Source of the DNA: a virus
Virus record (IMG/VR): IMGVR_UViG_3300048111_000009
Location: 1 to 31,890 of that record
Reading direction: 5' to 3' (one strand)
Length of the DNA stretch: 31,890 nt
The position numbers and the translations under genes are program-made. This document shows positions 25,205 to 31,890 of this stretch, piece after piece (position 1 is the stretch's first letter; every line of letters begins with the position of its first letter). Under the pieces are notes generated by a model. It worked only from the letters and a program-made list of their open reading frames with translations. It was not told where the DNA came from and made no database searches.

Positions 25205-25377
25205 TTTTTTCTCCTTTTAAATAATTTATTTGCCTGTCGTTGAAAAGACCATTCTAAAAATCTATCCAACCAACTACTCTTCTTCTTCTTGCTAAAGATA
25301 GCATCCCAATTTGCATCTATCTTCTTTTTATCTTCAACCCTTCTACCTGAACCTTTACCGCCATGCCACTTAGTCAT
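25201..25377 (-). CDS. Small basic 'WHGGKGSGRR' protein (58 aa)
   Basis: I choose ATG 25377, just before the end of the PP-loop gene, giving 58 residues starting MTKWHGGKGSGRRVEDKKKI. The longer frame to 25419 would begin inside the PP-loop gene without support. Small phage proteins with the N-terminal WHGGKGS motif followed by 'NWDAIF' and a basic tail are widespread in T4-like and other marine phages, with no known role. Here the second half (SSWLDRFLEWSFQRQANKLF KRRKK) is an amphipathic basic helix, which could bind nucleic acid or membrane. Confidence 0.65.
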   Translation of the reverse strand: MTKWHGGKGSGRRVEDKKKIDANWDAIFSKKKKSSWLDRFLEWSFQRQANKLFKRRKK

Positions 25378-26137
25378 AGTTATTCTCACTTGTACAAAAA
25401 ATACCACATTCAAAGTCATAGCTCTTCAAGTCTCTGCCTTTGGCATCTACTGGCAATTCTTTTAATTGTATTCTTTTGCCTTTGTATCTAACAAGATTAG
25501 CACCATATTCTTCAGACATTTCAGCTCTTTGCTTGAATACATCGGGGAATGTTTTTCTTACCAAGTTCCAATAAGTTGGTGAACTAGCTTTTACACAACC
25601 AATACAATTAGCATTGGGATAACCAAAAGAATATATCTCAGGTAGCTTAATTCCAGATTCTAATAAAATATCAAAACAACCCTGTTTAGTTATGCCTTCA
25701 TCAATTAATACAGTAAGAAGATTGTCTCTTTGATTTTCTCTAAATCTTTTAGCTCTTCTTTTCTCTTCAACAGTAAAACCTAAAACAATATAATCAGTAG
25801 GATTTTTAATTTCCCACACCTGTCTAGCATTTTTCTTTAAATGAGTTGTACAAGGTGCTCCAAAATTCCCTGCCATATACTTTCTTTTTCTCCATACAGT
25901 TTCGCAAGATTGGTCAGGAAACTTTGGATTGATTGCAAATTCAATTTCAACACCTAACCATTGCTCTATATCTTTTAAAAATCTTTGATTATCCTCATGC
26001 TCTTCTTTGATTGGATTGTTTACAACGCGAATATTATTATCATCACCATATAGTTCTATGGTCTTTTTAGCAGCTATAGCACTAGCAGCACCACAACTAA
26101 ACCAAACAGTGATGTTTTTGCCAGTTATTTTAGTCAT
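25370..26137 (-). CDS. PAPS-reductase-like PP-loop protein 2
   Basis: The 255-residue product is in the adenine-nucleotide alpha-hydrolase fold. The PP-loop is SCGAASA at residues 14-20 (VWFSCGAASAIAAKK). Further on are GAPCTTHLKK, LGFTVEEKRRAKRF, NCIGCVKASS and near the C terminus ECGIFC. The CxxC and paired Cys suggest a metal or iron-sulfur site. Members include sulfonucleotide reductases, tRNA thiolases and DndC. Which reaction this one does is unknown. It shares segment order with the protein at 30334-31275. Starts inside the end of the preceding gene (8-base overlap). Confidence 0.75.
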   Translation of the reverse strand: MTKITGKNITVWFSCGAASAIAAKKTIELYGDDNNIRVVNNPIKEEHEDNQRFLKDIEQWLGVEIEFAINPKFPDQSCETVWRKRKYMAGNFGAPCTTHLKKNARQVWEIKNPTDYIVLGFTVEEKRRAKRFRENQRDNLLTVLIDEGITKQGCFDILLESGIKLPEIYSFGYPNANCIGCVKASSPTYWNLVRKTFPDVFKQRAEMSEEYGANLVRYKGKRIQLKELPVDAKGRDLKSYDFECGIFCTSENNYD

Positions 26138-26624
26138 GATTAATCCTTTTAAAGTTTACTGATCTGTCTAATTTGCTTAGCAATTCTTTAGCCTTCATAA
26201 AGTCTTCAGGTATACATCTTAATAATTCTTCTATACTAAATATCATCATCTCAGGTTCGTTTTTGTGTATCTTTTGTAAGATAGGTTTCTCATCATCAGT
26301 ATCACAAACTAAAGCAGTCTTCTTATCAAAGTTAAAACACCTAGCATTAGGTTGAATCATTATGTAACCACTCTCTTCACATTTCTTGTTAAGAGCCACA
26401 AAAGCTCTAAGCATCATATCAACCATCTTTAACTTTTCTTTAACCTTACCTTTGTAAAGTGTGTCCCTTAGCATTGTCTCTGCTCTGCAAAACTTAATTT
26501 CAAAATCAACACCCAACATCTTAAATATTCTCTTCCTACTTCCCCACTTCTCAAAACTTTCAGCTTCGTAAGTTCTAAGCTCACACAACTTAGTCTCTAA
26601 AGATTCGTCTAAATATGTCTTCAT
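26130..26624 (-). CDS. Hypothetical protein (164 aa)
   Basis: The product starts MKTYLDESLETKLCELRTYE. The first 90 residues look helical and charged (KVKEKLKMVDMMLRAFVALN), then a small beta part (YIMIQPNARCFNFDKKTALV CDTDDEKP). I do not recognise a family. GGAG nine bases upstream supports the start, which shares ATGA with a small membrane-protein frame. It overlaps the PP-loop protein by 8 bases, so the two are likely coupled and may work together. Confidence 0.65.
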   Translation of the reverse strand: MKTYLDESLETKLCELRTYEAESFEKWGSRKRIFKMLGVDFEIKFCRAETMLRDTLYKGKVKEKLKMVDMMLRAFVALNKKCEESGYIMIQPNARCFNFDKKTALVCDTDDEKPILQKIHKNEPEMMIFSIEELLRCIPEDFMKAKELLSKLDRSVNFKRINHD

Positions 26625-26764
26625 TGGTTGGGTCTCCAGTCGTGAAATTCATAGTGGTTTGGGTTGGTTGCTTTAGAAAAGCAAACCAAACCAACCAACT
26701 TTTTGTTAATTTGGGCAAAAATACCAAACCAAAACCAACCAAAACCAACCAAAAAACCAACCAT
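26621..26764 (-). CDS. Small predicted membrane protein encoded by a GGTTGG repeat tract (47 aa)
   Basis: The frame starts at ATG 26764, one base after the primase-helicase stop, with GAGG nine bases upstream. It ends at TGA 26623-26621, overlapping the next start (ATGA). The product starts MVGFLVGFGWFWFGIFAQIN, a very hydrophobic Trp/Phe/Gly segment, then KKLVGLVCFSKATNPNHYEF and HDWRPNQ. It could be a one-helix membrane protein. The repeat gives a strongly skewed amino-acid make-up, so a non-coding role for the DNA is a fair alternative. Clean junctions at both ends favour coding. Confidence 0.45.
   Translation of the reverse strand: MVGFLVGFGWFWFGIFAQINKKLVGLVCFSKATNPNHYEFHDWRPNQ
26656..26696. 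repeat. Imperfect inverted repeat (stem-loop) in the repeat gap
   Basis: Two arms rich in GGTT/AACC face each other around TGCTTT-AGA-AAAGCA, a perfect 6-base core stem with a 3-base loop (7 with the flanking T-A). The outer part pairs with several bulges. The stem lies downstream of the GGTTGG repeats on the transcript and has no U run. It may be an RNA structure, a replication feature, or a by-product of the repeats. Confidence 0.45.
26724..26763 (-). repeat. Tandem GGTTGG-type short repeats
   Basis: Reading the minus strand, GGTTGG recurs three times separated by runs of T (spacers TTTTTT and TTTT), followed by GGTTTGG. GGTTGG pairs can fold into a two-layer G-quadruplex in single-stranded DNA or RNA, as in the well-known thrombin aptamer. 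The repeats lie at the 3' end of the primase-helicase gene. They may be origin iterons or simply low-complexity coding DNA. Confidence 0.7.
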
Positions 26765-26765
26765 G

Positions 26766-28646
26766 TTAAAACACCTCATTATCGAAAGATTTTGACTGAT
26801 ATCCATAACCTTCTTTGTAGTGAACTAGATCATGTGCTTTTAAATCATTCAGCCTACTTTTTAATGCACTGTCTTTAATATCCATTCTTGCTAATAATAT
26901 TGAATACTTAACCCAAACGCTAATAGGGTCATTAGGTTCTTTTTCCTTTTGATACGCTTCTATGGCTTCTATAGTTTCTTTTCTTGCACCTTTAATAATA
27001 GTTTCCCTGGGTGACTCAAGTGTAAGTTTCAGTACACCTGAAGTAACATTACTAAATCCAAAGACTTCTACTTCATGGAACTTAAAGTTCATAGGTTGTA
27101 TTGGTCTACCATCTTTAACAAGTGTCTGATCTACAGATACAAGCATAGCTTCATCATCACCACTTCTTTTAACCCTAAATTCATAGTCAAGTGCTGCTGG
27201 TAATACAGAGCTTCCTCTTGCTCTTGCTGAAGAGCCATGACCAGTGTGATGCACTATCACTATAGAAGCATTAAACTCTTCTTTAAGCATGTCTACACGC
27301 TGTATAAAGGTATTCATGTCTTTAGTGCTGTTCTCATCTAATCCATAGTTTCTAGCCAAGGTGTCGATGATAATCATACCTATACCATTGTTCTCAGCTT
27401 CTATATCTCTACAAACCTGTTGCAGGATAGCAAACTCTTCATCATCACCTATTCTTGAACCCCTATTTGATACAAGTAAAGGTTTCTTATCTAAGTTCAT
27501 GCCATAGAACTGTTCATATGCTTTTATACGTCTACCAACTGCATTAGTACCTTCACCTGCAAGATAAAGCACAGTTGATGGTTTAGTATCATATCCATAG
27601 AAATCTTTGCCTGTGGCAACCGCACAACCCATAGCAATAGCCACAAATGATTTACCTGTCTTGGGTGCTCCAAATATAGAAGTAACTGTGCCACGTTCTA
27701 TACATCTATCTACCAACCAATCAGGCTCAGTAATATTGGCCATGATCTCATTTACTGTTTGGAAATATAAACTTCCTTTTGGTCTTTTAGCTGTATTGCT
27801 TGTTATGTAATCTTCCAATGATTTAGAGTCTGCAAAATAACCTGATTCATACGCATCCCATAAATCGTCTTTTTCTTTAAATTCTTTTGGTGGTTCAGCA
27901 ATTAAAACACTACAACCATTTTGTTTTAGGTGACTAGAAATCTCATTAGCAACCTTCTTACCAGCCTCATCATTATCAGGGAATATCCAAACATCCCTTC
28001 CATAGATAGGTGACCAGTCAGCTTTTTGCCAACTATTAACGCCACCATGCCATGTACAAGCATCTCCATCCTTTCTTATAGCTTCACATCCACGCAATGC
28101 TTTCTCACCTTCATTAATAATGATAGGTTTATCAGGAAATTTATTAGTAGAATAAATAGGTAACAAGCCCTCAGGTCTTCGCATAGACCAAGAACCATCA
28201 GGATTCATACTGAAGGGTGCATACTTTTGTTTGATAGGATGACCATCAGGAAACCTCATAACCCAAAAGTTAGTTGCATACTGCACCTTAACTATTGCTT
28301 GAGAATGAAGTTCCCTCATTTGGACTTTTGTAAAAGACCTTGCATTGCCCTTGTTAGTGTTATTTTGGGGGAGTCCACTAACGCTGAGTAAGGAGTCAGA
28401 GGGCAATGCTTGGTCGTAACCAAATTGTTTTAAAACTGTATTAATATCTTGATTCAAATGTTTAATTAAATCGATGATGCCACCACCTACATCTTCTTCA
28501 AAGTCGTACCAAGTCCCTGATTCTAATGTAAGGACTTTGCTTTGCTTATTACCCCAGCGTAGCTCTTTAGAAGAGCTACTACTAGGTTCACCAAGCAATT
28601 GCTTTGCAACTTCAGGTGCTATTTTCTGCCAATCAATTGACTGCAT
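26766..28646 (-). CDS. Primase-helicase (TOPRIM plus RecA-type ATPase)
   Basis: The 626-residue protein starts MQSIDWQKIAPEVAKQLLGE. An N-terminal segment (GTWYDFEEDVGGGIIDLIKH) matches the zinc-binding-domain position of DnaG-type primases but lacks the cysteines. A TOPRIM domain follows with Glu179 (INEGEKA) and IFPDNDEAG (222-228). A RepA/RecA-type helicase domain has Walker A GAPKTGKS (326-333), Walker B IIIDT (425-429) and VHHTGHGSSARARGSS. The C-terminal part looks like a winged helix. It should unwind DNA and possibly prime it at the fork, recruiting host polymerase. Starts at TGATG with the preceding SSB-like gene. Confidence 0.9.
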   Translation of the reverse strand: MQSIDWQKIAPEVAKQLLGEPSSSSSKELRWGNKQSKVLTLESGTWYDFEEDVGGGIIDLIKHLNQDINTVLKQFGYDQALPSDSLLSVSGLPQNNTNKGNARSFTKVQMRELHSQAIVKVQYATNFWVMRFPDGHPIKQKYAPFSMNPDGSWSMRRPEGLLPIYSTNKFPDKPIIINEGEKALRGCEAIRKDGDACTWHGGVNSWQKADWSPIYGRDVWIFPDNDEAGKKVANEISSHLKQNGCSVLIAEPPKEFKEKDDLWDAYESGYFADSKSLEDYITSNTAKRPKGSLYFQTVNEIMANITEPDWLVDRCIERGTVTSIFGAPKTGKSFVAIAMGCAVATGKDFYGYDTKPSTVLYLAGEGTNAVGRRIKAYEQFYGMNLDKKPLLVSNRGSRIGDDEEFAILQQVCRDIEAENNGIGMIIIDTLARNYGLDENSTKDMNTFIQRVDMLKEEFNASIVIVHHTGHGSSARARGSSVLPAALDYEFRVKRSGDDEAMLVSVDQTLVKDGRPIQPMNFKFHEVEVFGFSNVTSGVLKLTLESPRETIIKGARKETIEAIEAYQKEKEPNDPISVWVKYSILLARMDIKDSALKSRLNDLKAHDLVHYKEGYGYQSKSFDNEVF

Positions 28647-30319: not shown

Positions 30320-30336
30320 TATCTTTTTTGCCCTTA
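30274..30336 (-). repeat. Spaced 10-base inverted repeat around a small-gene start
   Basis: TAAGGGCAAA (30336-30327 on the minus strand, with the PP-loop gene's TAA stop) pairs exactly with TTTGCCCTTA (30283-30274), 43 bases apart. It encloses the ATG at 30319 and could hide the AAGGG ribosome binding site or serve as an operator. Confidence 0.5.
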
Positions 30337-31275
30337 CTCAATCTCTTTTACTGCAATCAAATCGTTATTTATTTCATTTTGAAATGGCTCACATGAATCT
30401 TCACAACCATCAGTAATGTGTAGATGATGCATGTCTTTAAACTTTGTAAAATCTTCAGTTATCATTTTTTGTATATCATCTACAGACTTCCAACCTCTAA
30501 AAAATTTAATATCTTCTTGTATTTTATTAGCTATAGCACCATTTCTTGCATATTTTTTTTCCATTCTTCTGGGAAAATCAAATGCACTAGGTTCTTCAAC
30601 CATTATTGTCATTAGTTTTTTAAATGATTTTTTCCAACACCAAACACAATTACCAAAATGTTCAGGTATTTCTAAATCAAAGGTTTGTTCTTGCCACCAA
30701 TCTAGCACATCCTGCTTATCAACATTTAAGTCAAGTAATGGATAAATAAAGTTTCTTTTATTATTAAGATTTGCTCTTCTATTCTCATCTGCTCTTATAC
30801 CTATCGCTAATACATAATCTTCTTTTTTTAATCCTAAATTATTGATATAGCTTTTAATTGGATAATCTTTTAACTCTCTTGTGCAAATTGGAGCTGCTGT
30901 AAAGGGTATTCCATATTTTTTTATCTGATCTTCAAAAGGTTCGCCAGTCCTAGATGCTGTTTTAAAATTAACAACATTATGCCTAGTACCCTTGCCTTTT
31001 TCGTGTGTTATTTTGGCTTCTAGCCAAATTGTATTAAAGCCAAAATTCTTATCACAATTGTTAATAAATTCTAATGTTTTTTCATGCTCTTGACCTGTAT
31101 TAGCAAAAATTACAACAACATCCTTCCATTTATCTTTATGTTTTAAAATTTCTTTAGTCATATATCCTGATGTTCTGCCACCACTGAAAGATGTTATTAA
31201 AGTTTTATCTTTATCAAAATATTTTTCTAATGAGCCCTTGCTTTCTTCAAATAAGTTTATTTGTTTATTTTTCAT
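30334..31275 (-). CDS. PAPS-reductase-like PP-loop protein 1
   Basis: The 313-residue product has a PP-loop SGGRTSGYM at residues 31-39, the ATP-binding signature of the PAPS reductase/DndC group of adenine-nucleotide alpha hydrolases. Then come TAAPICTREL, AIGIRADENRRA and NCVWCWKKSF with a CxxC. The C-terminal region is charged. Phage copies are common and none has a firmly known role. Candidates are sulfur activation, DNA or tRNA base modification, or a nucleotide-handling defence. Starts directly after the exonuclease stop (TAA then ATG) and is likely co-translated. Confidence 0.82.
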   Translation of the reverse strand: MKNKQINLFEESKGSLEKYFDKDKTLITSFSGGRTSGYMTKEILKHKDKWKDVVVIFANTGQEHEKTLEFINNCDKNFGFNTIWLEAKITHEKGKGTRHNVVNFKTASRTGEPFEDQIKKYGIPFTAAPICTRELKDYPIKSYINNLGLKKEDYVLAIGIRADENRRANLNNKRNFIYPLLDLNVDKQDVLDWWQEQTFDLEIPEHFGNCVWCWKKSFKKLMTIMVEEPSAFDFPRRMEKKYARNGAIANKIQEDIKFFRGWKSVDDIQKMITEDFTKFKDMHHLHITDGCEDSCEPFQNEINNDLIAVKEIE

Positions 31276-31890
31276 TTACAACACCAACTCAACAACATTA
31301 GGACTATTGTAAACAGATAGCGGTTTGCCCTTCTGATATTCTTTATAGTTCTCTAAGTATGTTTCCATGATTGACCAACCAAAATCCATTTGCTCTTTAG
31401 TCATTCTAAATACCTTAGATGCGTAAGGATATGTTTTCTCTTGTGCTACAAATACAAAGTCATCAACCTTATATCCAGCAGACTCCATACCACGCCTATA
31501 CCATGCTGCTTGTAGATCATAGCCATACTTCTTGACTGATCTAGCAAAGGTGTAAGGCTCAACTGATTGTGTAGTCTTGTAATCAACAACCACTATCTTA
31601 TCTTTTGGATCAGTATCATCTAAAGGTGGGCATATTAAGTCAGGCCTACACTTACATAAAACAGCATCTTCATACCAATAGAAACTAGACTCTGCTATCT
31701 TATTCCTGGCTTCAAGATAATTATTACCCTCATACACCATTGCATCTTTCATACCATGTATATTTTCTACATCTGCTTCTTTAATTACAGTAAGACCTCT
31801 CTTCTCATATTCTTCTTTTAATTCTTTGTTTGCCTTGGTGTATGGACTGCCAGTAATGACAACCACTTCTTTATCAAAGGCTTCTTGCCC
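31276..31890 (-). CDS. PD-(D/E)XK exonuclease, C-terminal part (starts at window beginning)
   Basis: This fragment runs off the right edge and is in frame with 362-1. It includes the catalytic half: LCKCRPDLICPP carries the Asp and VVVDYKTTQS the D-x-K pair of the PD-(D/E)XK active site. QAAWYRRGMESAGYKVDDFV matches the RecE/DUF3799-type motif near the end. With the left fragment the whole is 275 residues. The GTG at 31866 is an internal Val codon, not a start. The family processes DNA ends and usually pairs with a strand-annealing protein; none was recognised nearby. Confidence 0.85.
   Translation of the reverse strand, partial: GQEAFDKEVVVITGSPYTKANKELKEEYEKRGLTVIKEADVENIHGMKDAMVYEGNNYLEARNKIAESSFYWYEDAVLCKCRPDLICPPLDDTDPKDKIVVVDYKTTQSVEPYTFARSVKKYGYDLQAAWYRRGMESAGYKVDDFVFVAQEKTYPYASKVFRMTKEQMDFGWSIMETYLENYKEYQKGKPLSVYNSPNVVELVL
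31765..31890. repeat. Terminal direct repeat, right copy
   Basis: Identical to 24-149, offset 31741. It continues the exonuclease frame, so joining here closes the genome at about 31,741 bases. Just outside the repeat the two ends differ, which points to two co-existing alleles rather than plain duplication. Confidence 0.95.

Follow-up and report, generated by a model that had tools for sequence, protein, structure and literature searches.

The window analysed here is a stretch of viral DNA of 31,890 nucleotides (positions 1 to 31,890 of IMG/VR record IMGVR_UViG_3300048111_000009), and on its minus strand an element of ~140 bp lies between the gene for a primase-helicase and a gene for a 164-aa protein (Table 1). 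The first half of this element is the GGTTGG tract that a preliminary description of the DNA had placed after the primase-helicase gene, and it is denser than chance: nine GGTT(T)GG/CCA(A)ACC copies fall within 150 bp, against a maximum of three in 200 shuffled versions of the window, and a stricter pattern of three spaced repeats has this tract as its one match in the whole window. Several short direct repeats are thus found beside a putative initiator gene, as in an iteron-type origin. An AT-rich region adjoins them, as judged by reading the sequence, and folding as DNA gives z scores of -1.9 for the window, -4.0 for locus L010 and -2.3 to -5.1 for ten representatives. A search for known RNA families returned nothing between 26300 and 27100 at E values up to 1, no tRNA was found in the window, and there is no switch in window-scale GC skew at the position of the element. 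Elsewhere on the minus strand, two genes (25370-26137 and 30334-31275) match the phage PAPS-reductase family phrog_424 within one small genome, and the window ends (3-377 and 31276-31890) encode nearly identical protein stretches, a few differences apart, as would result from imperfect closure of a circular genome.

Table 1. Features of the element and its flanking genes in the window.
Feature	Position	Strand	Description	Basis
Primase-helicase, 626 aa	26766..28646	-	Proposed initiator; Toprim, RSF1010-RepA-like helicase, winged-helix-like C-terminus	Pfam, PDB profile, predicted structure, Foldseek
C-terminal domain, residues about 550-626	26769..26999	-	Predicted helix 592-604, likely recognition helix	
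Direct repeats (iterons)	26724..26762	-	GGTTGG x3 + GGTTTGG; start-to-start spacing 12, 10, 10 bp	Sequence, density control, relatives
GGTTGG copies	26762-26757, 26750-26745, 26740-26735	-		
GGTTTGG copy	26730-26724	-		
AT-rich spacer	26700..26723	-	Putative unwinding region	Also in relatives
Imperfect hairpin	26656..26699	-	Direct copies in 5' arm, inverted copies in 3' arm (about 26674-26656)	Folding
Second repeat cluster	26699-26686	-	GTTGGTTGGTTTGG, within hairpin 5' arm	
Apical stem	26684-26668	-	TTGCTTT/AAAGCAA, loop 26677-26675	
Last inverted copy	26626..26632	-	CCCAACC, directly 5' of 164-aa start codon	
164-aa gene	26130..26624	-	Abuts element in relatives; not tracked by repeats	
47-aa ORF	26621..26764	-	Incidental reading frame through element	Frame lost in relatives keeping element

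The primase-helicase matches AAA_25 in Pfam (E 1.7e-36) and, narrowly, Toprim_2 (23.5 bits against a cut-off of 22.1), with Toprim_3 just under its cut-off. RSF1010 RepA (1g8y, E 3.7e-11) was the single match at E up to 0.001 in a PDB profile search, and a Foldseek search with the predicted model placed Twinkle and T7 gp4 at the top, with RepA also ranking highly (1olo, TMt 0.77); by profile and model, the helicase part is of the RSF1010-RepA type. The C-terminus is predicted to be winged-helix-like: the model, built from 25 sequences with a pTM of 0.46, gives helix-helix-helix-strand-strand over 553-618 (pLDDT 79-91 over 551-620), and there are weak helix-turn-helix matches to a FadR-family chain (E 4e-4) and, in 8 of 25 members, to Fe_dep_repress (best 1.9e-6). 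For the 164-aa protein, tblastn against named phages gave no match, and a search with its structure model returned nothing at E up to 0.001. In three loci it is fused to ~196 further residues (L006:3752-4831, L008:2274-3353, L045:5014-6099) that look PD-(D/E)XK nuclease-like by eye, one member having a weak RE_LlaJI match (E 0.0068).

An open reading frame of 47 aa runs through the element, its ATG (26764-26762) lying just past the primase stop TAA (26768-26766) and its TGA overlapping the start codon (ATG, 26624) of the 164-aa gene. The preliminary description took this frame for a small membrane protein, rich in Trp, Phe and Gly, with a GAGG site before it. The GAGG is indeed present (26777-26774), but it belongs to two codons, GAG GTG, close to the 3' end of the primase gene. 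The frame is intact in all 15 close relatives (of 16 loci with a primase relative, 15 span the whole primase at 91-100% identity and the 16th ends inside it), and an ATG-initiated ORF of at least 42 aa occurs in 18 of the 23 unique elements of the GGTTTGG class, a count that leaves out L036 because its ATG falls inside the primase frame; with that ATG admitted, L036 has the ORF too. However, when the comparison of frame with repeat is carried to relatives at 60-71% primase identity, the repeats stay and the frame goes: in L055, L056, L060-L062, L065 and L067 the repeats and hairpin are intact, the ATG is missing, the frame is shifted because the hairpin loop is one base longer, and no ATG ORF of at least 42 aa remains. 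Outside the GGTTTGG class such an ORF occurs in just one unique element out of 21, and its sequence is unrelated. Even within the close clade, an alignment of 12 sequences shows no variation, at synonymous sites or elsewhere, in a run of 66 columns (91-156) that spans the hairpin and extends past it, and the 47-aa product has no family match and no tblastn match among named phages. We therefore reject the membrane protein, which now seems extremely improbable. The G-quadruplex proposed for the same DNA fares no better as a conserved property, since GG runs are missing from the GTGTG class of relatives and from the roseophage repeats TTTGTAG and TTTATAC.

What, then, is conserved? A profile search, of which the best 80 of 136 relatives were taken, contributed to a set of 110 loci, overlapping and in several cases from one contig, 105 of which have a match to the 164-aa protein (none in L016, L057, L058, L070 and L085). 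By reading of the sequences, one plan is common to every class of element: direct repeats come first, then an AT-rich spacer, then a hairpin that holds inverted copies. The letters of the repeat change in concert across all copies of an element, and script rules assigned 67 loci to seven classes, namely GGTTTGG/GGTTGG (38), GGAAGT (14), GGATTGG (5), CAGGGA (4), TTGGGTG (3), GTGTG (2) and TGGGGTA (1). Each of the 44 unique elements has an apical stem of 6-8 bp, perfectly paired by Watson-Crick rules and closed by 3-5 loop bases. Every class has a stem sequence of its own, with two exceptions: a single one is common to TTGGGTG and TGGGGTA, and three occur in GGTTTGG. A further genome collection yielded one full-length relative (L111), which carries a GGTTGG-type element and which, although it comes from a MAG named Flavobacteriaceae, we take for phage DNA, as well as one fragment. 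The preliminary description had also allowed that the DNA could be an origin, and this suggestion is well supported in the form of an iteron-plus-hairpin origin, not of a G-quadruplex: judging from sequence, the element is probably an iteron-type origin of DNA replication that would be bound by the C-terminus of the primase-helicase.

Indeed, the repeat type follows the winged-helix-like C-terminus, and neither the N-terminal half of the primase-helicase nor the abutting 164-aa gene. Across 68 loci, the Spearman correlation of tract 5-mer similarity is 0.74 with C-terminal identity and 0.68 with the helicase part, versus 0.27 with the Toprim part, 0.13 with residues 1-200 and 0.24 with the 164-aa protein; for 54 dereplicated loci the corresponding values are 0.70 (C-terminus), 0.63 (helicase), 0.14 (residues 1-290) and 0.15 (164-aa protein). 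The partial correlation in the dereplicated set is 0.48 for the C-terminus given the helicase, a value reached in none of 2000 permutations, which ignore relatedness, and 0.29 for the helicase given the C-terminus. As the helicase part correlates too, linkage on the primase side contributes to the correlation. Among distinct variants of the predicted recognition helix, KHL is found in 10 of 11 for GGAAGT, KML in 4/4 for CAGGGA and DRL in 3/3 for TTGGGTG; x-RL is found in 18/18 GGTTTGG and 4/4 GGATTGG variants, so that these letters fail to separate the last two classes. Recognition of the repeats by the 164-aa protein is unlikely, as near-identical 164-aa proteins follow different classes (L050/L078, 91%).

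Tracking of the C-terminus, and a position before the 164-aa gene, would equally be expected of an operator, at which the C-terminus on its repeats would regulate transcription of the 164-aa gene and those following it. Yet a long array, an AT-rich spacer and a structured hairpin exceed what an operator needs, and the origins of SaPI and SCCmec elements, in the available text of PMC7581432, occupy the same place relative to their helicase; we regard a pure operator as quite unlikely, whilst noting that operator and origin roles could coexist in the same element. Could the element instead act as RNA, a transcribed leader folded such that its repeats pair with the inverted copy beside the start codon, thereby controlling translation of the 164-aa protein? 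The RNA fold is stable (z of -3.45 for the window and -4.48 for L010), and in the GGTTTGG and GGATTGG classes that last inverted copy varies along with the repeats. The element also stays beside the 164-aa gene in L043, L047 and L051-L053, where an extra gene separates it from the primase (gaps of 639 to 1199 bases). This leader is nonetheless highly unlikely, because the repeat type tracks the primase C-terminus and not the 164-aa gene, and because the last inverted copy is partial or absent in the other classes. A repeat RNA like those of type III toxin-antitoxin systems was a further reading that we considered. In L036-L053 the 164-aa start codon lies further upstream (ATGACCAAACC...), so that the last inverted copy is coding there. 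The gene inserted in L043, L047 and L051-L053 is of other sequence and by eye resembles MT-A70.

An origin bound by the C-terminus accords best with pairs of loci in which the domain and the element have been exchanged together, and these exchanges are stronger evidence than the correlations, whose permutations ignore relatedness. L059 (GGATTGG) and L065 (GGTTTGG) are 96% identical over primase residues 1-540 and 98% over the 164-aa protein, versus 56% over the C-terminus. In 120-base windows their DNA identity is 0.92-1.00, with one dip to 0.82, from ~420 bases before the primase gene to its last quarter; it falls to 0.54-0.78 across the C-terminus and the element, recovers to 0.91-1.00 across the 164-aa gene and for about 450 bases past it, and is lower further on. 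Likewise, L063, L064 and L066 against L067 have cores at 96-99%, C-termini at 56-58%, 164-aa proteins at 84% and differing repeats, and 12 pairs between L089, L092 or L100 and six GGAAGT loci have C-termini at 36-40% and 164-aa proteins at 75-81%. In all, 16 pairs of different class are at least 93% identical over residues 1-540, and in all 16 the C-termini are at or below 0.58. Among same-class pairs above the same threshold, the C-terminus drops below 0.6 in 11 of 127, down to 0.39 (L045/L046); an altered C-terminus can therefore retain the same repeat, which speaks against a strict one-to-one code. We found no case of the converse, in which the repeat would change and the C-terminus stay: among all different-class pairs, C-terminal identity reaches 0.64 at most.

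Named phages display the same plan. A search with the terminase found 745 related phage records, of which the six best are roseophages of the CRP-822 type (50-52% identity), and we compared five of these six, the sixth being CRP-822. All five cultured roseophages have direct repeats and a hairpin after the helicase gene, with TTTGTAG in CRP-811 and CRP-823, TTTATAC in CRP-831 and CRP-821, and GGCTGGAAA in CRP-406. CRP-823 and CRP-821 share the host strain FZCC0197; their helicases agree at 0.95-0.99 over the first six 100-column blocks and at 0.79 and 0.70 over the last two, and their repeats differ. The helicases of CRP-811 and CRP-823 agree at 0.75-0.89 in the early part and at 0.98-1.00 at the C-terminus, and the repeat of these two phages is identical. 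The gene after the origin-like element in roseophages resembles the 164-aa gene by eye, but showed no detectable homology to the 164-aa protein (hhalign probability 0.1%). In Verrucomicrobia phage P8625, seven ATCGGCA copies and one inverted copy lie within 115 bases after the helicase gene (L116:4343-4457), and at the other record end (L117:1-60) a hairpin with arms ATCGGCACTCT/AGAGTGCCGAT bears the same motif, which suggests the same origin plan, split by the ends of a record listed as linear. In the available portion of its main text, the paper on the family (PMC12629253) does not use the terms origin of replication, iteron, repeat, hairpin, intergenic or primase. The CRP-406 gene CRP406_2 (L113:3951-4277), annotated as hypothetical, begins across the origin-like repeats, and its first third may be an over-annotation.

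These roseophage repeats also bear on the idea that the origin is RNA-primed or forms through an R-loop, its site being set by a G-rich transcript instead of a protein. In the UViG classes the repeats are rich in G on their sense strand, and RNA-based phage origins do exist, according to the accessible part of PMC7157519. However, TTTGTAG and TTTATAC are not G-rich, and a transcript would not be expected to track a protein domain, leaving the idea barely credible.

For the protein-bound iteron origin, we propose that the C-terminal winged-helix domain would bind the direct repeats, about one helical turn apart, and that this binding would bring the RepA-type helicase onto the AT-rich spacer. 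The hairpin might then offer the same protein a structured site for starting a primer, the role that ssiA/ssiB have for RepB' in RSF1010; this priming role, drawn by analogy, is the weakest step of the mechanism, and we place it only slightly below an even chance. DNA binding, unwinding, priming and origin firing are all inferred from these sequence patterns. The plan kept through seven classes, the tracking of the C-terminus, the 16 exchanged pairs, the CRP-821/CRP-823 pair, the RepA-like helicase and the stem in 44/44 elements argue for such an origin; the 11/127 exceptions, the partial correlation of 0.29 for the helicase, the recognition-helix letters common to GGATTGG and GGTTTGG, the GC skew without a switch and the model pTM of 0.46 argue against it.

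Perhaps, then, origin identity resides in a transferable cassette made up of the C-terminal domain, the iterons and the hairpin, and exchanged by recombination among co-circulating marine phages, a tentative reading of the sequences to which we give somewhat less than even weight. Were it true, near-identical phages, even on one host strain as with CRP-821 and CRP-823, would acquire different origin specificities, perhaps as an escape from competition during co-infection or from exploitation by satellites, and one chain would fill the roles that RSF1010 divides among RepA, RepB' and RepC. The joint changes suggest that phages exchange origin specificity in this way, and, if the origin reading holds, they come with a located origin and initiator for a recently described, widespread and mostly uncultured group of marine phages. 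The classes would also provide a natural series of repeat/DNA-binding-domain pairs from which to read how a winged helix picks its site. Such elements are readily misread as genes, as with the 47-aa ORF here and CRP406_2 across the CRP-406 repeats.

In the literature searched, we found no description of this arrangement, or of its exchange as a cassette, in CRP-822-like marine phages. The DNA-binding domain of the O protein and the ori iterons vary together between related lambdoid phages; unlike the element here, lambdoid iterons lie inside the O gene, and O is neither helicase nor primase. An iteron origin downstream of an initiator helicase is nevertheless of a known kind, since SaPI and SCCmec elements have one, and P4 and pRN1 are similar. 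In the accessible sections of PMC7581432, the C-terminal domains of SaPI Rep and SCCmec Cch2 bind short repeats directly downstream of the helicase gene, as proposed here, and the putative SCCmec origin also has inverted repeats; their primase is separate and their helicase of another type, whereas here the hairpin arms carry repeat copies. The available text of PMC4234260 supports three further comparisons. P4 alpha unites a Toprim-type primase, a helicase and a winged-helix origin-binding domain in one chain, with repeats at ori, although the helicase here is RSF1010-RepA-like and the likeness to P4 is one of domain plan. RSF1010 oriV combines a RepA-type helicase with iterons and stem-loops (ssiA/ssiB, which prime in RSF1010); there RepA, RepB' and RepC are three proteins, here there is one chain, and the hairpin here is known from sequence. 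The pRN1 protein ORF904 has a C-terminal winged helix and a stem-loop 3' of its primase-helicase gene, kept in structure and changed in sequence, and its authors mention similar stem-loops in some phages, but its origin is without iterons and its primase and helicase are of other types. Other origins for comparison, as far as the excerpts of their sources go, are that of PLE RepA (PMC7145576) and those of mycobacterial prophages (PMC7157519). As far as our searches go, what is new is the combination of a Toprim primase, a RepA-type helicase and a predicted winged helix in one chain with iterons and an iteron-bearing hairpin, and the exchange of that combination between near-identical marine phages.
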